In this document: piece after piece, positions 51,832-63,717 of the stretch
How the letters are laid out: each line of letters opens with the position of its first letter
Position numbering within the stretch: the first letter of the stretch is position 1
Source of the DNA: an uncultured Lachnospiraceae bacterium
Lineage (GTDB): Bacteria > Bacillota > Clostridia > Lachnospirales > Lachnospiraceae
Reading direction: 5' to 3'
Length of the DNA stretch: 64,000 nucleotides
NCBI GenBank assembly: GCA_949893755.1
Contig: CATLCV010000003.1
Location: 1 to 64,000 of the forward strand
Notes under the pieces: model-generated
Told to the model about the DNA's origin: nothing
Seen by the model: only the letters and a program-made list of their open reading frames with translations
Database searches by the model: none
Made by a program: the position numbers and the translations under genes

Positions 51832-51913
51832 CCTGCATTTCACACCCGAAAACATACATTTTACGAAATCACGGATGATTTCCTTTGTCCCCCAACCAGA
51901 TATTTGGTATACT
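51832..51913 (+). promoter_or_regulatory. Operator-promoter module B upstream of the LytTR regulator
   Basis: cctgcatttcacacccgaaaacatacattttacgaaatc (51832-51870), TTGTCC (51885-51890)-N17-TATACT (51908-51913). Confidence 0.8.
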
Positions 51914-51921
51914 TATAAAAT

Positions 51922-52013
51922 GGCCGCATGTCCAGAATGGGATACCCTTGGATATACCTTATGAATCGGCCGCATAGCCAGAATGGGATGCCCCCTTAGG
52001 GATGCCTTAGTGA
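51922..52013 (+). repeat. 46-bp tandem repeat in the leader of the response regulator
   Basis: ggccgcatgtccagaatgggatacccttggatataccttatgaatc / ggccgcatagccagaatgggatgcccccttagggatgccttagtga. Confidence 0.8.
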
Positions 52014-52017
52014 AACC

Positions 52018-52771
52018 GTGAAAGGAGCTGATGATGTGTATCTGAATATTGCCATATGCGAGGACGACGAAAATGACCTTCGTTTTCTCGAAACCTGCCT
52101 GCATTCTGCGTGCGGCGAACTGGAACTGACCGCAAGGATCACCCGATTCTTTTCCGGAGAGGATTTCCTTACTACTCTTCGTAAAAAAAATACCCCCCCC
52201 CGATATTATTTTCATGGATATCTACATGAACGGGATCAGCGGGATCAAGGCCGCAAGGGACGCCGGTCTGACAGGACAAACCCGGTTCATCTTCACAACA
52301 AACAGCCGGGAGCATGCTCTGGAGGCTTTTGCACTGAACGCCGCTCATTATCTTCTGAAGCCTTTGACAAAGGAGGCGGTCCAGGAAGCGCTCCGGCGCT
52401 GCCTCCCCCGGCCTGGAGAGGCGGAATCGAAGCTTTTGAAGATAAAAACCAGTCTGGGAACTGTTCCCATACCAATGGAAAATATCCTGTATATTGAAGT
52501 ATTCAATAAAGTCTGTACCATTCATACAGAAAAAAACAATTTTCAGACCTATACATCCCTGGACGCACTGTTTGAACTTCTGGACGGGGTTTCCTTCATG
52601 AAGGCGCAGAGAAGCTACATTGTAAATATGAAATACATAGAGTCCTTTTATTTTGACCATGTGGTCCTGCAGAACGGGAAAGAGATCGTCCTCTCCAGAA
52701 ACAGCCGCGGGGAACTGAAAAATCAGTACCAGCAATTTTTATTCCATCTGGCAAGGAAGGGCGCAATATAA
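52018..52771 (+). pseudogene. LytTR-family response regulator interrupted by +1 frameshift (possible phase-variable gene)
   Basis: ORF 52018-52497 begins VYLNIAICEDDENDLRFLETCL...TTLRKKNTPP. The remainder (DIIF)MDIYMNGISGIKAARDAG...LytTR is in another frame. Junction is A8 (52183-52190) TA C9 (52193-52201). Confidence 0.85.
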
Positions 52772-52849: not shown

Positions 52850-53272
52850 CTACGCCGCCCTCCACTTTTTCTCGAAGGAGATCCGGTTATACCCTTCCTT
52901 CCATTCATACCGGATGGAATCCAGAAATTTTTTTGCCATAAAGACGCCCAGTCCGCCGACCTTCCGCTCTTTGGCGCTCAGAGTGATGTCCGGGTCCGCC
53001 TTGCTGAGCGGGTTGTACGGAGTCCCGCAATCCTCCAGGCTGATATTCAGGGAACGCTGCACCCCGTCCTTTTCAATTTCATAGGATACGCGCACATTTC
53101 CCTTGCCGTCCTGATAGGCATAGTTCACAATATTAACAAAAAGCTCCTCAAACGCGATGTCGAACTGCATCTGCATTTTCGCAGGGCATCCGTGCTCCTG
53201 CAGTACCATTTCAAACAGTTCTGTCAGCTCCATCAATGACTGCTTCGTTGCTTCCACCTCTAATGTTTTCAT
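52850..53272 (-). CDS. Anti-sigma factor-type histidine-kinase-like ATPase (RsbW/SpoIIAB-like)
   Basis: FDIAFEELFVNIVNYAYQDGKGNVRVSYE, EDCGTPYNP, RKVGGLGVFMAKKFLDSIRYEW. Confidence 0.88.
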   Translation of the reverse strand: MKTLEVEATKQSLMELTELFEMVLQEHGCPAKMQMQFDIAFEELFVNIVNYAYQDGKGNVRVSYEIEKDGVQRSLNISLEDCGTPYNPLSKADPDITLSAKERKVGGLGVFMAKKFLDSIRYEWKEGYNRISFEKKWRAA

Positions 53273-53280
53273 AGCCGCTC

Positions 53281-53580
53281 CTATTCTACCGTAAGAATGT
53301 CAATAAATCCCGTGGATTCAAATACTTCCTCTACCATGCTGTTTACGTTGCACAGGATCATTTCCTTGTCCTCACTGTTGACCTTTTTCTGTCCGTTCAA
53401 GAGTGCCCGGAGGCCGGCGCTGGAAACGTACTGCACCTGTTCAAAATCCAGCCGGACGCAGTCCGCCCTTCCGATTCCCGACAGAAGTTCTTTTTCAAAA
53501 TCCTCCGCCGTGTAGGTATCGATCCTTCCTTCCGTGTGCAGCACCAGTTCGTCTTCTCTCTGTTCAAATGTCACCTTCAT
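53281..53580 (-). CDS. STAS-domain anti-sigma factor antagonist
   Basis: MKVTFEQREDELVLHTEGRIDTYTAEDFEKELL...RLDFEQVQYVSSAGLRALLNGQKKV. Confidence 0.9.
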   Translation of the reverse strand: MKVTFEQREDELVLHTEGRIDTYTAEDFEKELLSGIGRADCVRLDFEQVQYVSSAGLRALLNGQKKVNSEDKEMILCNVNSMVEEVFESTGFIDILTVE

Positions 53581-53663: not shown

Positions 53664-56213
53664 TCATGCCAATTGCCGGCTTGCCAGCTGGTAAAACAAT
53701 CCTCCCTGCTCCATCAATTCTTCATAATTCCCTTCCTCCGCCAGCCTCCCCTGATCCATCACAAAGATCCGGTCGCAGTCCATCACCGTGCTGAGCCGGT
53801 GGGCGATGACGATCCGGGTAGCCTTTAATTTTGCCAGGCTTTCGCAGACCATGTTCTGGGTCACGTTGTCCAGGGCCGATGTGGCCTCGTCAAAAAACAG
53901 AATCTTCGGATTGCTGACGATGGCCCGTGCGATCAGGATCCTCTGCTGCTGCCCGCCGGAGATGGTGCCGCTGTTCTCAGACAGCACCGTGTGCAGCCCC
54001 ATGGGCATCTGCGCGATATCGTCCTTCAGGCCCACCTCTTCGATCACCTTTTCCACCTGCTTCATGGTCGTGCCCGGAGCCGTGATGGTGATATTATCGA
54101 AAATGCTTCCCGCGATCAGGTCGCCGTCCTGGAGCACCACGCCGAACTTCTTGCGCAGCTCCCGCTTGTCCATGCTGTCAATGTCCTTGCCGTCGTAGAA
54201 GATCTTTCCCTTCTGGGGGCGCTCAAAGCCCAGCAGCATTTTCATCAGCGTGGATTTTCCTCCGCCCGAAGCGCCTACCACGCCGATATACTCCCCGGGT
54301 CGGATATGAAAGGACAGGTCATTCAGCACATTTCCACTTTCCGCATTGTAGGCAAAGGTCACGTTGCTGACTTCAATATCTCCGGTCAGCGTGCCGGGGA
54401 GGATCGTTTCCTCCTCCATCTCGGGCAGCGCCGAGAGGATCGGCTTACACCGCCGGTATGCCGGGATTGCCGAGTTCACGTCCATGAAGGAGGACACGAT
54501 CCCCAGCATCGCCCCGGAAAAGGAACCGAAAGCGGACATGAACGCGGAAAACGCGCCCACGCTTAAGGACACGCTTTTGCGCATCATCCAGAAGTACAGC
54601 GCCATGGAAAATGCCACATTCAGCGCCCCCACCAGCACGTCTGCCCCGGCGCTCATCTTCTCCTTCCGGATGTTGATATTGCGGATCCTGGAATAGACTT
54701 TCAGGTATTCGTACTGGACCCGGTTCTCCACGCCGGCGATCCGGATCTTGGAAATGCCCGCTAAAAACTGGAACATCAGCGAGGACAGCTTCCCGTCCAG
54801 CTCCATTTTTTCACTCTCATATTTCAGCTGCCGCCAGCCGATCAGGCCGATGACCAGCATCGCCCCCAGCACCATGATGACGGACGGCTTTGCCAGGGGC
54901 TTCGCGTACCGGAACATCTGCCAGAGATACATCAGGGAGAGCACCGCCGTGATCACCGTTTTCACGATCACATCCGCAAAGACCTGGTAAATGCTTGTGA
55001 TGCCCATGACTCTCTGGGCCAGGTCGGCGGAATCGTATTCCCGGAAAAAGCTTTCCGGCAGGTTGAACAGCCGGTCGTAGGCCGCGCTCTGCACCGCGTA
55101 TTCCATCGTATTCATGCTCCGGAAGGTGGCCAGATTTTTCACAATGGTAAAGCTTAAGTTTCCCAGGGAGCAGGCCAGCACCAGGAGGCAGATCTGCACC
55201 AGCCCGCTCTGGTCCGCCATGGGGATGAATTTGTCATACACCTGCTGGTTGATCACCGGGAGCAGCAGCCCCGCCAGTGTCCCCAAAAACGCCAGAAACC
55301 CGATCTTCACAATGTCCCGGATATACACGCATTTGAAACCGAATGCGAGAAGATCCTTCCACTTCATGGCTTTGGCCGGGAAGGGGCGGTACACCATATC
55401 CGCCTTGACCGACAGGGCGGCCGCGTATCTGGCGTCGATCACCACGCCCTCGCTTTCCGGCGACTCGTAGGCAATGTATTTCTGAGGGCCTTTCGGCAGG
55501 CAGACTACCGGGGCGCGGCCCTTTTCCTTGTAGGCCAGGATGGGGCCCGAATCCTTCTGATACCATTTTTCCTCCAGCACGATCTCCCGGCTGGTAAAAT
55601 GGGAGAGACGGCCGATGTCCCGGATATCGAACTTCCGCCTGCAGCTTTCCTTTACCGTGGAAAACGGGGCGATACGGATGTCCATATAGTCGCAGATCCG
55701 GGCCGCCGCGTCGTAGACCTTATTCCCGCTTACAGGCGTCTTGTTTTTCCGGTTCTTTTTCCGGAACATGTCGTAGATCAGAAACAGGCCCCGCTCATAG
55801 GTCTGCTCCTGTTCCAGAGATGTGGCGTAGATGCCGCCCTCCTCCTTGATGATATTGATGTTGTACTGCTCCGCCATCTGCTCTTCAAATTCTTCCGGAT
55901 CAAAGAGCCGGATTCCCAGGGTGGACGCAAAATCCATTTTCACCTGCTCCGGGTTCTTGGGACGGATTGCCCGAAGCTGTGCCTGTTCCAGGGCGATCAG
56001 GGCGAAACGCCAGGAGCCCAGCTTTTCGTTGTCCCAGCACAGAGAAGGGATCCATTCCCCTTCCGTCATCTCGCCGATCAGGAAGCGCCTGCCGGGATTT
56101 CCGTCTTCCAGGGGGAGCACGTAGACCAGGACATGGCCCTCCAGAACCTGGAAGGCCCGCCGGGGATCCTCCGTGATCAGCTTCTGGCCGCCTTTTAATC
56201 TGATATTCTCCAT
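53664..56213 (-). CDS. NHLM/NHLP bacteriocin-system ABC transporter permease/ATP-binding protein
   Basis: Long non-peptidase N-terminus, 6-TM ABC exporter core, GVVGASGGGKSTLMKMLLGF, ISGGQQQRILIARAIVSNPKILFFDEATSALD. Confidence 0.88.
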   Translation of the reverse strand: MENIRLKGGQKLITEDPRRAFQVLEGHVLVYVLPLEDGNPGRRFLIGEMTEGEWIPSLCWDNEKLGSWRFALIALEQAQLRAIRPKNPEQVKMDFASTLGIRLFDPEEFEEQMAEQYNINIIKEEGGIYATSLEQEQTYERGLFLIYDMFRKKNRKNKTPVSGNKVYDAAARICDYMDIRIAPFSTVKESCRRKFDIRDIGRLSHFTSREIVLEEKWYQKDSGPILAYKEKGRAPVVCLPKGPQKYIAYESPESEGVVIDARYAAALSVKADMVYRPFPAKAMKWKDLLAFGFKCVYIRDIVKIGFLAFLGTLAGLLLPVINQQVYDKFIPMADQSGLVQICLLVLACSLGNLSFTIVKNLATFRSMNTMEYAVQSAAYDRLFNLPESFFREYDSADLAQRVMGITSIYQVFADVIVKTVITAVLSLMYLWQMFRYAKPLAKPSVIMVLGAMLVIGLIGWRQLKYESEKMELDGKLSSLMFQFLAGISKIRIAGVENRVQYEYLKVYSRIRNINIRKEKMSAGADVLVGALNVAFSMALYFWMMRKSVSLSVGAFSAFMSAFGSFSGAMLGIVSSFMDVNSAIPAYRRCKPILSALPEMEEETILPGTLTGDIEVSNVTFAYNAESGNVLNDLSFHIRPGEYIGVVGASGGGKSTLMKMLLGFERPQKGKIFYDGKDIDSMDKRELRKKFGVVLQDGDLIAGSIFDNITITAPGTTMKQVEKVIEEVGLKDDIAQMPMGLHTVLSENSGTISGGQQQRILIARAIVSNPKILFFDEATSALDNVTQNMVCESLAKLKATRIVIAHRLSTVMDCDRIFVMDQGRLAEEGNYEELMEQGGLFYQLASRQLA

Positions 56214-56227
56214 GTCGTATCCCTTCC

Positions 56228-58375
56228 TTATATGGTCTGCACCAGCGCCTGGTAGTGTCCCGGCTGGCTCATGAGTTCGTCATGGCTGCCTCTCTGGACG
56301 ATCCTGCCGTGTTCCATGACAATGATCTCGTCGCAGTCCCGGATGGCCGACAGCCGGTGGGCCACGATCACGCAGGTACACCCCCTGCGCTTGATATTGT
56401 CCATGATCTCCTTTTCCACGAGGGGATCCAGTGCGCTGGTGGCCTCGTCCATGATCAGGACCGTCGGATTCGTGACCAGCGCGCGGGCGATTTCCAGGCG
56501 CTGGCGCTGCCCGCCGGACAGGTTGTGGCCGCCCTCGGTCAGGACGTACTCATAGGCCCCCGGCTTATTCGTAATGATATCATGGATGCAGGCGTCCTTT
56601 GCCGCCTGGATCATATCCTCTTCCAGAATGCTCTTATTCCACATGGTCAGGTTGTCCCGGATGGTGCCGGAAAAGAGGGTAATGCTCTGGCTCACCGTAG
56701 ATACGCTGGAGCTTAAGATCTCCTTCGGAATGTCCCGCACCGGCATATTGTCCATATAGATCTCCCCGGACCAGGGGATGTACAGCCCGCTGACGATCTT
56801 GGACACCGTGGATTTTCCGCAGCCCGAAGCGCCCACGAAGGCGATGGAGCTGCCGCTGGGCAGATGAAAATGAAAATCCTCCACCAGCGGTTTTTCCAGA
56901 ATGCTGTACCCGAAGGAGATCCCTTCCAGCCTCACATCCCCGCTGAGCTTGGCGGTCATGGCCGTCTTCTGCCCCTTTGCCCGGAACTTCTCGTCCTCCT
57001 CATAGCGCATGATGTCCTCCACCCGGTTCATGTCCGCTTTTAAGGTCTGGATCTTCTGGATAAATTCCACCAGCTTGTTTACCGGCGCCACAAAGGAACC
57101 CAAAAGGCTGGTGTAGGCGATCAGCATCCCGGCGGTCATATTTCCCTGGATGACCAGGATGCCGCCCATCATCAGCACCAGGATATCCGCGATCCCGTTA
57201 AAGACCTCGGGAATGGCGTTCAGGTACTGCTGGACGCTCCCCAGCTTCTGTTCCATCCGGATGGTCTTCGCGTAATATCCCAGGATCCGGCTTGTGTATT
57301 CATTCTCCGCGCCTGCCGCCTTCAGTGTGCTGGTAATGTTCAGCCCGGCAAATACCGCGCCCACCAGCTTTCCCTGATCCTGCTGCAGCTTCATGGTGGA
57401 GTTGGCGATCACTCTGGATGAGGCCTTCATCAGTGTCATGTTGATGGCAATCCCCGCAATACCGATCAGGGTCAGCAGCGGACTGTAGGACAGCATCAGT
57501 ATCAGATAAAAACAGGCCACAAAAATATTCAGCATGGTTTCCGCCAGGTCCCCGGCCAGAAAATTGCTGACGCTGTTGTTATTTTCCACACGCTCCGCCA
57601 GGTCCCCGGCATACCTCTGGTCGAAAAAATTCATGGGCAGCCGGAACAAATGGTACAGAAACCTGTGGGCCGAGATCATGGACATCTTATTCTGCAGCTT
57701 TAGCAGCAGAAAGCTCCGGTACAGCGTCAGGACCGCCTGGAACAGCATGGTAAATGCCATGACCGCCAGAAATGCCGTCATCCAGCCGGTATTGCCTCCC
57801 AGCAGGATCTCGTCGATGAACACCTGGGAAAATACGGGGATGACCATGCCCGGAAATACCAGCAGAAGCCCGATCCCGATCAGCGCCGTGATGGACGAAT
57901 ACTGCCCTTTTAAGCGTGACTTGATAAAGGAAAAAAGGTTCCTCTCTTTTTTGGATTTTTTAAACTCTTTTTTCTTTTCAAAGGTCAGCACGATCCCGGT
58001 AAACGAGTCGTCCAGCTCTTCGTAGGTCAGCTTCCGCCTGCCCATGGCCGGGTCGTTGATGTAATAATTTTTTCCTTTACGCCCTTCGTAGACCACAAAA
58101 TGGTTAAAATTCCAGTGGATGATGCAGGGCGGCCTGATCTCCAGCAGGTTGTCCAGGGATTTCCGGAAGCCCTTCACCTCGAAGCCGTATTTTTTCCCCG
58201 CCCGCATGATATTTTTCGCGTTGCACCCGTCCCGGGAAACCCCGGTCTCGATCCGCATTTTTTCCAGGGGCATATGCTTCCCGTAATAGGCAAATATCAT
58301 GCAAAGGGATGCCGCCCCGCACTCGGTGGCCTCCATCTGATAGATGCTGGGTGTTTTTGCATAGCTGTACTTCAT
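56228..58375 (-). CDS. Peptidase-containing ABC transporter (PCAT; NHLM-type C39 peptidase/permease/ATPase)
   Basis: C39 peptidase (YQMEATECGAASLCMIFAYYGKHMPLEKMR; HWNFNHFVVYEGRKGKNYYINDPAMG), ABC exporter core, LSGGQRQRLEIARALVTNPTVLIMDEATSALD. Confidence 0.93.
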   Translation of the reverse strand: MKYSYAKTPSIYQMEATECGAASLCMIFAYYGKHMPLEKMRIETGVSRDGCNAKNIMRAGKKYGFEVKGFRKSLDNLLEIRPPCIIHWNFNHFVVYEGRKGKNYYINDPAMGRRKLTYEELDDSFTGIVLTFEKKKEFKKSKKERNLFSFIKSRLKGQYSSITALIGIGLLLVFPGMVIPVFSQVFIDEILLGGNTGWMTAFLAVMAFTMLFQAVLTLYRSFLLLKLQNKMSMISAHRFLYHLFRLPMNFFDQRYAGDLAERVENNNSVSNFLAGDLAETMLNIFVACFYLILMLSYSPLLTLIGIAGIAINMTLMKASSRVIANSTMKLQQDQGKLVGAVFAGLNITSTLKAAGAENEYTSRILGYYAKTIRMEQKLGSVQQYLNAIPEVFNGIADILVLMMGGILVIQGNMTAGMLIAYTSLLGSFVAPVNKLVEFIQKIQTLKADMNRVEDIMRYEEDEKFRAKGQKTAMTAKLSGDVRLEGISFGYSILEKPLVEDFHFHLPSGSSIAFVGASGCGKSTVSKIVSGLYIPWSGEIYMDNMPVRDIPKEILSSSVSTVSQSITLFSGTIRDNLTMWNKSILEEDMIQAAKDACIHDIITNKPGAYEYVLTEGGHNLSGGQRQRLEIARALVTNPTVLIMDEATSALDPLVEKEIMDNIKRRGCTCVIVAHRLSAIRDCDEIIVMEHGRIVQRGSHDELMSQPGHYQALVQTI

Positions 58376-58376
58376 C

Positions 58377-60299
58377 TTACTCCCCCGTCTGTTCTGTCTG
58401 CATCACCTGATTTTGATTCTCCGTCACAGTGAGCTTTTCCTTCAAATAAGGGATCAGCATGGTGATGGGCGCTTTCCTTTCCGTGACCACGCTGGCCGTC
58501 AGCATGGTGCCCTCCGTCAGCGTGACATCCTTTCCCTTTTTACTGGACCAGTAATACCCGCTGGCCGTGCTGTTGTCCGTCTCGATCGAGCAGACCACCT
58601 CCACCACCGGCCCGTTTGCGAGAAATGCCTCCACCAGATTGTCATTTCCCAGGGTCTTCTGCATGTCCGCGGCGGAGGTCACATAGGACGCCACCGAACG
58701 GACATTTCCCTTCATGTGGCCGTATTCCTGCTTGTTCACCGTGGTCGGGTAGATCATGACGTCCATCCCCGGAAGGACCTTCTTGCCGTCGCCCACCGGA
58801 ATATAGCAGATCGCGTCGATGGTATCCGTCTCCTGGCCCTTGACCTTGACGACCTCGCCGCCCTGGCTCACGACAGAGCCCACGTCCGCGACAACCTCCT
58901 GCACCACGCCGTCCGCCGAAGCCGTGATCTGGTACTTTTCCATGTTGGCCGTGTATTTTGCCAGCTCCATTTTCAGGGAATCCAGTACCGACGCCTTGGC
59001 CGCGGAAAATGCGGTATCAATGCTCTGCTTCTTCACATCCATCTGCTGCTTCGCCTGATCCGCCTGAGTCTGGAGGGACTCCACCTCCTGGGTCAGGGAC
59101 TGCACCAGGCTGTGCTCCACGCTGTAATCCGATACGGCCTGGCTGTATTCATTGCTGAGGATGTTCTCATTTCTGGACTGGTTGGACTGCTGCCGGGTCA
59201 CCGACTCATAGGCCGCCTTCGCGTTTTCAAATTCCACTCTCGCGGACTCCGCTTCACTCTGACAGCGGGACACATTTTCACCGGCCCGGGAAGCAGCGGA
59301 CTGGGCGCTGTCCAGAGCGCTCTTGGCCTGGGCCTGGTTCTGCTGCTGCGCGTAGAGCTGCTCCTGCGCTCCGCCCAGAGAGGTTTCCGCGGTCTGGATC
59401 TGGGCCGCGGTCTGGTTCAATTCTGCCTCTGCCTGGCTGATGGCATCCGCATTTGTTATCGGATCAAGCTTCAGTTCCTCCAGCCTGGCCTGCTGTTCCC
59501 CATATACTGCCTGGAGCTGGCCGAGCTGCGCGGAGAGCTGATTCACACTGCTCTGTATGGAATCCACTGCCTGGCATGCCTGGCTGTAGACCGCCGACGC
59601 CTGGTCACGGGCCGCCTGTGCCTCCTGGCTCTGTGCCCGGGCCTCCTCGTAGTACTGCTGCCTGGCGGAATACAATGCCTGGGCTTCCGTATAATCCAGC
59701 TGCTCCGGCAGTCCGGTAAGGCTGCTGATGGTATCGTAGTAGTCGGACTTCAATCCGTCCCTGGCGGACTTTGCCGCATTCATCCGGCCCGTCGCGCCTG
59801 CCAGCTCCGACTGCCTCCTGGCCAGCGTTTTCTGTGCCATCTCATAATCGCCGGTGAGGGCGATCAGCTCCGCCTTGATATCAACGATAGACTTATTATC
59901 GGAAGTCACCACATCCCCGGTGCTGTCCAGCGTCACCTTCTGCACCGCCTCCATCCTGTTTTTCAGGTTCGTGACCTCCTGGGAGACGTCGTCGTCCGCA
60001 ACACAGGCAACCACCTGCCCCCGTTTCACCTGGTCGCCCACGGACACCTCCACGTCGGTGATCATCCCTGCCACCTCCGAGTATACCCCTCCGGTGCGGT
60101 CCCCCCGCATATAGATCCCGTTGGCGTCCACATTCACCGGAAGCCGCCCGAACACGCCCCAGAGCAATGCCCCGGCCACGATCAGGGCCCCTCCGGAGAG
60201 GGCCACCCAGAGGGACGACGGCGCAATGACGATGGCCCGGTCCAGCTGCTCCGGCGAGGACAATTTGTCCAACGCTGATTTTCTGAATAAGTCTGCCAT
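58377..60299 (-). CDS. NHLM-type HlyD-like secretion/membrane fusion protein
   Basis: N-terminal TM, lipoyl-like VSVGDQVKRGQVVACV, long coiled coil (Gln/Ala rich), C-terminal QITASADGVVQEVVADVGSVVSQGGEVV. Confidence 0.9.
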   Translation of the reverse strand: MADLFRKSALDKLSSPEQLDRAIVIAPSSLWVALSGGALIVAGALLWGVFGRLPVNVDANGIYMRGDRTGGVYSEVAGMITDVEVSVGDQVKRGQVVACVADDDVSQEVTNLKNRMEAVQKVTLDSTGDVVTSDNKSIVDIKAELIALTGDYEMAQKTLARRQSELAGATGRMNAAKSARDGLKSDYYDTISSLTGLPEQLDYTEAQALYSARQQYYEEARAQSQEAQAARDQASAVYSQACQAVDSIQSSVNQLSAQLGQLQAVYGEQQARLEELKLDPITNADAISQAEAELNQTAAQIQTAETSLGGAQEQLYAQQQNQAQAKSALDSAQSAASRAGENVSRCQSEAESARVEFENAKAAYESVTRQQSNQSRNENILSNEYSQAVSDYSVEHSLVQSLTQEVESLQTQADQAKQQMDVKKQSIDTAFSAAKASVLDSLKMELAKYTANMEKYQITASADGVVQEVVADVGSVVSQGGEVVKVKGQETDTIDAICYIPVGDGKKVLPGMDVMIYPTTVNKQEYGHMKGNVRSVASYVTSAADMQKTLGNDNLVEAFLANGPVVEVVCSIETDNSTASGYYWSSKKGKDVTLTEGTMLTASVVTERKAPITMLIPYLKEKLTVTENQNQVMQTEQTGE

Positions 60300-60318: not shown

Positions 60319-61899
60319 TTAAGGCACTGCGGGAAATGTTTTCGCTCCCGCCGCGGCATTTTCCGCGCCCGGATTCCATTTCAAGATCACCATGGTGATA
60401 TCGTCCGCCTGCTCCGCGCCGTCCACAAACGCGTCAATGGATCTGCTGACTGCGTGTACGGTCTGCTCCACGTCCGCATCCGCACTCTTTTCCAGAACCT
60501 CTGTCAGCCGTTTTTCCTCATACATGTCATAGGCCGCATTCGTGGCTTCCGTCACGCCGTCCGTATACAGCACCAGCTTGTCCCCCGGAAGCAGATCCAT
60601 CTCCTGCCTGCGGTATCGGATGTTCTTCATCCCCGCCAGCACAAAACCGTGATGGACCGGAACCTGCCGGACCGTTCCGTCCGCCTGGCAGAGGAAGGGA
60701 ACGTTATGCCCCGCGTTGCTGTAGGAAAAATGTCCGCTTTTCACATCCAGGATCCCCAGAAATGCCGTGATGAACATGCCTTCTTTATTGTTTTCCGCCA
60801 GCTCGTTATTGGAGCGTTTCAGGATCTCCGACGGGTCAAGTCCCAGCAGGAGCTGGTTCCGGATCATGGCCCTTCCCCCCATCATGAACAGCGCGGCGGG
60901 AACCCCTTTTCCGGACACGTCCGCGATCAGCACCGCCAGATGGTCCTCGTCCACAAAAAAGAAATCGTAGAAGTCTCCCCCCACCTCCTTGGCGGGATGC
61001 ATATTTGCATAGATATCCACGCCCTTTTCTTTTCCGATGTCAAAGGATGTGGGCAAAGCGGAGAGCTGGATCTTGCTCGCCACATCCAGCTCCGCCTTGA
61101 CCTTCGCGGAGCTCGCGGACGCCAGGATCGCCCGGAAAATGGACCAGAACATGAGCAGATAGATGGCCAGCAGGCAGATGCTGATGATCAGCGCCATCAA
61201 AAAGGACCCCGGATCCATGGACAAAAGCGTGATTCCGTAGGTGTCCAGTGTGTATCTCGCCGCCAGGAACAGGACATAAGACAGCACCGGCACCAGCACG
61301 ATCTGGCAGATCTGTTCCTCGGCAAGCTCCAGGATATGTACCAGCTTCTCCCTGAAAAAATACCTGTATATGACAAACAGCACCGCCAGCCCGGCGCAGT
61401 CGATGAGAAACCTGATTCCGTAATCCGGCAGGATCCGCGACAATGTAACTTCATCGGTCCCCGGTGAAAAAAGGCTGTACATGATCTGTTTGAATACATA
61501 AAATACGGAGGAAAAGAGGAGCATAAAAAGAACGGACACAAAGATCTTGATGTTCCGTTTTCCCTCATAGATCCGGACAGCCGCCGTACAGAGGATCACT
61601 GCCGGCACGCTTCCCTCCAGAACGTTCATAACAGAGATCAGGGAGTAGAACATCTGCAGCCTCCACATCTCTTCGATCCCGTAGGATGCCTCCATGATCA
61701 GGCCGCCTGCCTGTGATACGGCAAACCTGGACAGGGCGCCTGCCAGAAACGCGCAGACCGCAACAAAAGCCCATAGCAGGATGCTCCTCTTCCTGCCCTT
61801 TCGGGCTTTCAGCGTCAATGAAAGCATGACGGCTCCCAGGACAGTGCTCTGCACATACCCGATGCCGTTGTATAGATTTTCCCATTCAAATATTTCCAT
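60319..61899 (-). CDS. Membrane-anchored SpoIIE/RsbU-type PP2C phosphatase
   Basis: Multi-TM N-terminus; DVASKIQLSALPTSF, EVGGDFYDFFFVDEDHLAVLIADVSGKGVPAALFM, YSNAGHNVPFL, LVLYTDGVTEATN. Confidence 0.93.
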   Translation of the reverse strand: MEIFEWENLYNGIGYVQSTVLGAVMLSLTLKARKGRKRSILLWAFVAVCAFLAGALSRFAVSQAGGLIMEASYGIEEMWRLQMFYSLISVMNVLEGSVPAVILCTAAVRIYEGKRNIKIFVSVLFMLLFSSVFYVFKQIMYSLFSPGTDEVTLSRILPDYGIRFLIDCAGLAVLFVIYRYFFREKLVHILELAEEQICQIVLVPVLSYVLFLAARYTLDTYGITLLSMDPGSFLMALIISICLLAIYLLMFWSIFRAILASASSAKVKAELDVASKIQLSALPTSFDIGKEKGVDIYANMHPAKEVGGDFYDFFFVDEDHLAVLIADVSGKGVPAALFMMGGRAMIRNQLLLGLDPSEILKRSNNELAENNKEGMFITAFLGILDVKSGHFSYSNAGHNVPFLCQADGTVRQVPVHHGFVLAGMKNIRYRRQEMDLLPGDKLVLYTDGVTEATNAAYDMYEEKRLTEVLEKSADADVEQTVHAVSRSIDAFVDGAEQADDITMVILKWNPGAENAAAGAKTFPAVP

Positions 61900-62355: not shown

Positions 62356-63717
62356 ATGATGATCTTTTTACGTTTGTTTTTCGGATGTCTGGAACAGCTT
62401 GTTCCCTATGCATTTTTATGCCTGTATCCGTTCAACAGGCATTTCCGCTTTTCCCATCGGAAAACCCTCCTGAGTACAGTGGCCCTGGTTGCCGCTGTCT
62501 CATCCCTGTTTGCCCTGTCCGGGCTCTTTCTGACCTTTATCCTGCCCAGAGACCCATTCCTTCTGTGGTCAGTGAACGCGCTTTTCCTGTTGTTTCTGAT
62601 ACCGTGCTTTCTCTGGTTTCAGTACTGCGTGAAGGATATCTGGCAGAAAAAGCTGTTTATCTTTTCCTTTACGGTGACAGTCGCCCTGTTTATTACATCT
62701 ATTTATAACTGCACGGTCTACGCTGTCTCGAGCAATGTCTGGCTTCCCTACGGCGGGGACTTCTACCAGACTTATCTGTTTGCAGTGCTGTTCTCCCTGC
62801 TGCCCGGCTGGATTATTTTAAAATATTATTATCTGCCCATTGAGGATGTGCTGAGCGCGAAGGAAAGCGGATATCTGTCCCTCCTGTCCCTGTTCCTGTG
62901 CGTCCTGATCATCCCCGGGCTTACCCTGGCGCCCGAGTACGTGCATTCCGATCCGATCATACTCTATTTGTTTTTCGCCCTCCTGGTGTCCGTATTTGTC
63001 GTGTATGTGCTTGTTTTCAAGATGTACGCCCTGACCCGGGAAAAAATGCTGTCGCAACAGGAGACCATGCAGTTTCAGCATCAAAATGAGCTGTCTGCCG
63101 AGCAATACCAGAGGATCCATGGCCAGATCGAATATAACCGCAGGATGCGGCATGACCTGATCCACCATCTGCTGGTAATGCGGAGTTTTTTGAAGGAAGG
63201 AAAGGAAGGAGCGGCCGAAGAATATCTGGATCAATATCTGAAAGAGACAGAAAAATACACGCTCCTCCACTTTTGCGGCAATCCTGTGGCCAACATGCTC
63301 ATCAGCCATTACAACGCTCTGGCCAGAGAACAGGGAATTGATTTTACTGTCCGCGTCAGCATCCCCGACACACTGCCGATCCAGGATATCGATTTCTCCG
63401 TCCTGCTCGGGAATCTGCTGGATAATGCGGTAGCGGCGGCAGGAGCTGCCCCGGAAGCAGCCCGTTTTGTACGGCTGAATATGATCTGCTCCGGAAAAAT
63501 GCTTGCCATTGCGGTGGATAATGGATTTGACGGGCATATACAGCAGGACGGGGAGCGCTATCTGTCTACCAGGCCGGACCATCAGGGAATGGGCCTGAAA
63601 AGCATTGACATGATTTCTAAAAAGTATCAGGGCGGAGTGGAGTTTACGCATAGCGGAACAGAGTTTCACTCTTCGGTAATGGTGGGGCTGGAACCGGTCC
63701 GCGAGTTGAGCTTATGA
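62356..63717 (+). CDS. GHKL-domain sensor histidine kinase (AgrC-like)
   Basis: Six N-terminal TMs, RRMRHDLIHHLLVMRSFLKEGKEGAAEEYLDQYL, LLGNLLDNAVAAA, GMGLKSIDMISKKYQGGVEF. Confidence 0.92.
   Translation: MMIFLRLFFGCLEQLVPYAFLCLYPFNRHFRFSHRKTLLSTVALVAAVSSLFALSGLFLTFILPRDPFLLWSVNALFLLFLIPCFLWFQYCVKDIWQKKLFIFSFTVTVALFITSIYNCTVYAVSSNVWLPYGGDFYQTYLFAVLFSLLPGWIILKYYYLPIEDVLSAKESGYLSLLSLFLCVLIIPGLTLAPEYVHSDPIILYLFFALLVSVFVVYVLVFKMYALTREKMLSQQETMQFQHQNELSAEQYQRIHGQIEYNRRMRHDLIHHLLVMRSFLKEGKEGAAEEYLDQYLKETEKYTLLHFCGNPVANMLISHYNALAREQGIDFTVRVSIPDTLPIQDIDFSVLLGNLLDNAVAAAGAAPEAARFVRLNMICSGKMLAIAVDNGFDGHIQQDGERYLSTRPDHQGMGLKSIDMISKKYQGGVEFTHSGTEFHSSVMVGLEPVRELSL

Follow-up and report, generated by a model that had tools for sequence, protein, structure and literature searches.

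A LytTR response regulator gene in this stretch of DNA is broken at a run of nine C residues within its receiver-coding part and reads intact on either side, and we give an even chance to the reading that this run is a reversible on/off slippage switch belonging to a wider set of contingency tracts. The source bacterium appears to be a mouse-gut member of the Lachnospiraceae, genus Schaedlerella; the window (the whole stretch analysed) covers the first 64 kb of a contig of 86 kb from a draft genome of 384 contigs. In the proposed mechanism, replication slippage would add or remove one C in a slip-prone coding run that immediately precedes the phospho-acceptor strand of the receiver. The C8 allele (or C5 or C11) would encode the full regulator, a slip from C8 to C9, the assembled allele, would truncate it inside the receiver, and the reverse slip would restore it. 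Truncation by C9 would therefore leave an intact GHKL kinase without its likely partner. The tract would be one of the poly-C/G contingency tracts of the genus, which lie mainly in surface-glycan genes and also in two-component genes. If it switches, a gut commensal population would split into cells with and without the whole signalling pathway, with no external signal, although reversible switching within a living population is what we infer rather than observe.

The regulator gene contains, in order, A8, TA and C9. Its upstream frame begins at a GTG (52036) preceded by AAAGGAG (52020-52026), is lost at the tract and meets a stop near 52497, while the downstream frame reads DIIFMDIYMNGISG... 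and is open as far as the stop at 52771. The initial annotation had the receiver going out of frame at C9 (52193-52201) after TTLRKKNTPP, which proved exact when the sequence and frames were read. It had also claimed that eight C residues restore the frame through the receiver and LytTR domains to 52771; in agreement, the computed C8 version is one ORF with both Pfam domains above cutoff. Over tract lengths from 4 to 12, a single full-length ORF results with C5, C8 and C11 (243, 244 and 245 aa, respectively), whereas C4, C6, C7, C9, C10 and C12 give truncated ones, so that a one-unit change in length toggles between full-length and truncated regulator. The two halves are one gene, because the read-through protein matches Response_reg (PF00072; profile 1-110/111, 42.4 bits, cutoff 30.2) and LytTR (PF04397; 67.5 bits, above cutoff) and homologues in other genomes align over the junction (query residues 3-240). 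By itself, the downstream part scores just 22 bits for Response_reg. The product thus has the layout of a LytTR response regulator, a receiver followed by a LytTR DNA-binding domain. The C9 run is the sole C/G run of at least 7 in the 64-kb window. Upstream of the gene lies a two-copy direct repeat, also present at the copy in a sister genome, and its units are possible binding sites. Features of the region are listed in the table.

Table. Regulator gene, tract and neighbouring features (positions within the window)
Feature	Position	Strand	Remarks
Direct repeat, 36 nt, two copies	51912..51993	+	51912-51947 and 51958-51993; 83% alike, spacing 46; upstream of regulator
Regulator 5′ part	52036..52192	+	GTG, first ~52 receiver codons, ends in A8-TA; start aligns with ATG of paralogue L005
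A8 run	52183..52190	+	In frame as written; A8 in G007 copy, A5 in L030 and L005
C9 run, frame break	52193..52201	+	C5/C8/C11 in frame; C6 in G007; C9 and four further bases in L030
Regulator 3′ part	52202..52771	+	Remaining receiver with phospho-acceptor motif DIIFMDIYM, LytTR DNA-binding domain; intact to stop
Anti-sigma-factor-like kinase and anti-sigma factor antagonist	52850..53580	-	Kinase 52850-53272; antagonist 53281-53580
NHLP bacteriocin export genes	53664..60299	-	All intact; TIGR03797, TIGR03796, TIGR03794 above cutoff
NHLM ABC2	53664-56213	-	
NHLM ABC1 peptidase/ATPase	56228-58375	-	
HlyD-like secretion protein	58377-60299	-	
SpoIIE-like membrane protein phosphatase	60319..61899	-	
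GHKL sensor histidine kinase	62356..63717	+	Intact; Pfam HATPase_c_5 (PF14501)

The genome of the window (G000) was compared with its sister, the mouse-catalogue Lachnospiraceae genome MGBC000187 (G007), with the near-closed genome of Schaedlerella arabinosiphila DSM 106076 (G002) and with further relatives. The window and G007 copies differ by 4 nonsynonymous and 6 synonymous changes (dN/dS 0.19; P = 0.013 against the neutral share of sites), and against the L030 copy the downstream part gives a dN/dS of 0.11. The comparisons indicate that purifying selection acts on the regulator gene, which is intact apart from the tract, and that the regulator worked for most of its history, its break being recent or reversible.

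Tract length varies between close relatives. The G007 copy is 98% identical, yet has A8-TA-C6 in place of A8-TA-C9, which shifts its frame the same way as in the window copy; downstream of the tract it has a second frameshift (a C lost in AAAAAAACAA), and its neighbouring gene is deleted. A paralogue in G007 (L005), with C5 then T, keeps its frame through the tract but is cut off at 146 aa, next to transposase-like ORFs. The L030 copy (75% identical) reads A5-TA-C9 with four further bases and loses its frame at the same point; it is otherwise intact, with a stop that overlaps the kinase start and a 5′ end cut by the contig. In S. arabinosiphila, the last 49 codons alone remain, downstream of a transposase-like gene. 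A DNA search of 397 genomes of the family returned no further copies. All five known copies are thus inactive, three being broken at the tract and two cut short next to mobile elements, and the tract region is the sole visible lesion in two of them (window and L030). Comparison of strains, which the initial annotation had proposed, therefore bore out a difference in tract length (C9 here, C6 in G007, C9 in L030), but the long-tract alleles are all out of frame; the one in-frame copy at this site, L005, has a short C5.

Since none of the five copies is active, ordinary decay is a serious rival: the regulator would be dispensable in the mouse gut and repeatedly lost, with the C run as the easiest place to break and the break effectively one-way. 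We regard this as possible, if doubtful. The lesions differ from copy to copy (C9; C6 with a frameshift and the neighbour deletion; C9 with four bases; two truncations), as would fit repeated loss, and slippage in the short flgR and flgS tracts of Campylobacter jejuni has been described as non-reversible (PMC8355987). Decay accounts less well for two copies whose only lesion is the tract, for the strong selection on both halves of the gene and for the many other genes of the genus that show the same slippage pattern.

The purifying selection in both halves would also fit a C9 gene that is functional as it stands, with programmed +1 ribosomal slippage at CCC-C, or transcriptional slippage, restoring the frame. 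All three copies broken at the tract (C9, C6 and C9 with four bases) are indeed shifted in the same +1 direction, but a shared direction in three copies could easily be due to chance. Moreover, no conserved signal follows the tract, L030 having a different sequence there; the G007 copy retains its second frameshift uncorrected, and L005 is in frame without any shift. Recoding at the tract is therefore very unlikely.

Homopolymers are the usual site of assembly and sequencing errors, and in this draft three genes carry C9 where C8 would be in frame; the true tract could then be C8 and the gene intact. To place the regulator tract among others we surveyed the C/G runs of the 5.87-Mb genome, which has 26 of exactly 7, 11 of 8, 10 of 9 and one of 10, the regulator C9 being one of the 11 that reach at least 9. 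By a simple estimate, long C runs are no commoner than base composition predicts; the signal lies in frame status and length variation. The clearly intragenic C7 and C8 runs (six C8 and seven examined C7) are all in frame (0/13 broken), whereas 4/6 intragenic C9 runs are broken (Fisher P = 0.004, with the frame status of C7-C9 runs classified by hand and after the fact). The four broken C9 genes are the LytTR regulator, an SBP_bac_1 protein, an SBP_bac_5 lipoprotein (just past the lipobox) and one of two paralogues on contig C203. Both substrate-binding protein genes lose their frame at C9/G9 here (L065, G000:C23:32900; L071, G000:C64:2291), and their orthologues in G007, G002 and G010 have C8 and are in frame. 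The C203 paralogues are neighbours, each with a G9 near its start, one out of frame and the other in frame (L124; G000:C203:1475 and 2078); neither has a Pfam or NCBIfam match. Loss of mutS as the source of the C9 alleles gained no support, an open MutS frame of 895 aa with no internal stop being present.

Two other C8 tracts of this genome, at G000:C9:53874 and G000:C19:37457, match G007 and G002 exactly, which disfavours a general C8-to-C9 artefact and favours real slippage. The remaining genes in the window also read as long intact ORFs, the intragenic C7 and C8 runs are in frame as described, and two other assemblies are broken at the same site in the regulator gene. We consequently consider an assembly or sequencing error unlikely.

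The slippage reading draws further on the genus, where C/G runs of at least 9 occur in 10 of the 12 genomes searched. Runs of 9-10 mark the exact break point in at least 14 genes of G007 and S. arabinosiphila, most of them glycan-modifying, and several of these genes have a Pfam domain cut at the run. Genes with such runs encode methyltransferases, acyltransferases (Acyl_transf_3, MBOAT), a UbiA prenyltransferase, a family 2 glycosyltransferase, hexapeptide transferases, a TylF-type methyltransferase and a formyltransferase. Runs also cluster within single loci (G007:C9:123421-126798, in L117 121500-129500; G002:C1:1647291-1658179, L118-L121). In these clusters, G9-G10 runs sit within methyltransferase, acyltransferase, prenyltransferase and glycosyltransferase genes and are mostly out of frame; the loci are candidate phase-variable glycan loci in Schaedlerella.

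Two-component genes are affected as well. A NarL-type response regulator of S. arabinosiphila is split in its receiver by a G9 (L133, G002:C1:2432741); the run is absent from the orthologues in five other genomes, and the gene gave no allele series. A second tract, with near-identical flanks, occupies the 3′ end of a histidine kinase gene, where the ATG of the following response regulator is 15 bases away, and measures G7 here (L178, G000:C152, around 10670), G12 in G007 (L122, G007:C3:86671) and G9 in S. arabinosiphila (L137, G002:C1:3687978). Its length sets where the kinase ends, and with G7 the kinase stop overlaps the ATG of the regulator; tract length may thus vary the coupling of kinase and regulator. 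Frame-splitting runs of variable length, as read from these genomes, are typical of slipped-strand phase variation. We put about half our confidence in the proposal that Schaedlerella has a genome-wide, Campylobacter-like set of phase-variable poly-G/C genes, covering surface-glycan enzymes, substrate-binding proteins and two-component regulators, in which one switch turns off the LytTR regulator and so varies its regulon. A tract set of this breadth would make S. arabinosiphila, which appears in papers on defined mouse microbiotas, convenient for studying phase variation of glycans and regulators in the Lachnospiraceae.

The slipped-strand switch first suggested for the regulator is thus upheld in part. 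The frame is in with C8 and out with C9, the tract is the only lesion in the window copy, dN/dS is low in both comparisons, tract lengths differ between relatives (C9 against C6) and many runs in the genus are broken. Weighing against a switch are the inactivity of every known copy, two of them truncated; the lack of an in-frame long-tract allele among the five; and the sister copy, in which C6 is short for a fast switch and a further frameshift is present. The regulator is also poly-C on its coding strand, as opposed to the poly-G of most tract genes in the genus.

The probable partner of the regulator is the GHKL kinase of the window, because such a kinase directly adjoins the regulator in relatives, although the two are 10 kb apart here. 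The regulator precedes the kinase in L030 and S. arabinosiphila, and the kinase precedes the regulator at the G007 paralogue L005. Between the two genes in the window lie the NHLP export genes, and the initial annotation had the tract switching a whole peptide system. This part gained no support: the listed neighbours of the regulator/kinase pair in S. arabinosiphila and L030 include no NHLP genes, so that control of the exporter by the regulator would be a guess, and we dropped it as relatives keep the pair without that operon alongside. A second set of NHLP-type exporter ORFs, adjoining fatty-acid-synthesis-like genes, lies just past the window (L007 10080-15957; G000:C3, about 70079-75956).

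Slippage inside regulatory genes has precedents. In Staphylococcus aureus, homonucleotide tracts within the ORF are a source of variation in the LytTR regulator AgrA (reviewed in PMC7911514), and the likeness is close: a LytTR regulator acting with a GHKL-type kinase, switched by a change in tract length inside the ORF. In contrast to agrA, the tract here consists of C residues in the receiver part, the allele in the assembly is the OFF form and reversible switching is proposed from sequence; in addition, no genes for an autoinducing peptide system (AgrB/AgrD) were noticed among the ORFs read, a reading that small peptide genes fall outside. In Bordetella pertussis, bvgS switches between C6 and C7 (PMC1891110), and there too one extra C in the poly-C of a two-component gene truncates the protein and turns the regulon off. 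However, bvgS encodes a sensor kinase, has a shorter tract and demonstrated allele mixtures, and belongs to a different phylum. C. jejuni, also of a different phylum, uses G/C tracts to vary its surface structures, and slippage in short A/T tracts costs it flgR/flgS (PMC8355987). Like Schaedlerella, it has numerous G/C runs inside genes, for the most part those for surface glycans, and its slippage extends to a response regulator and the partner kinase. Its flgR/flgS tracts differ in being short A/T runs, and their non-reversible changes may serve as a fair warning for this regulator. The literature searched holds no report of a phase-variable tract set that includes regulators in Schaedlerella, which does not prove absence. 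A switch of this kind is already known from agrA and bvgS; the host group appears to be new.
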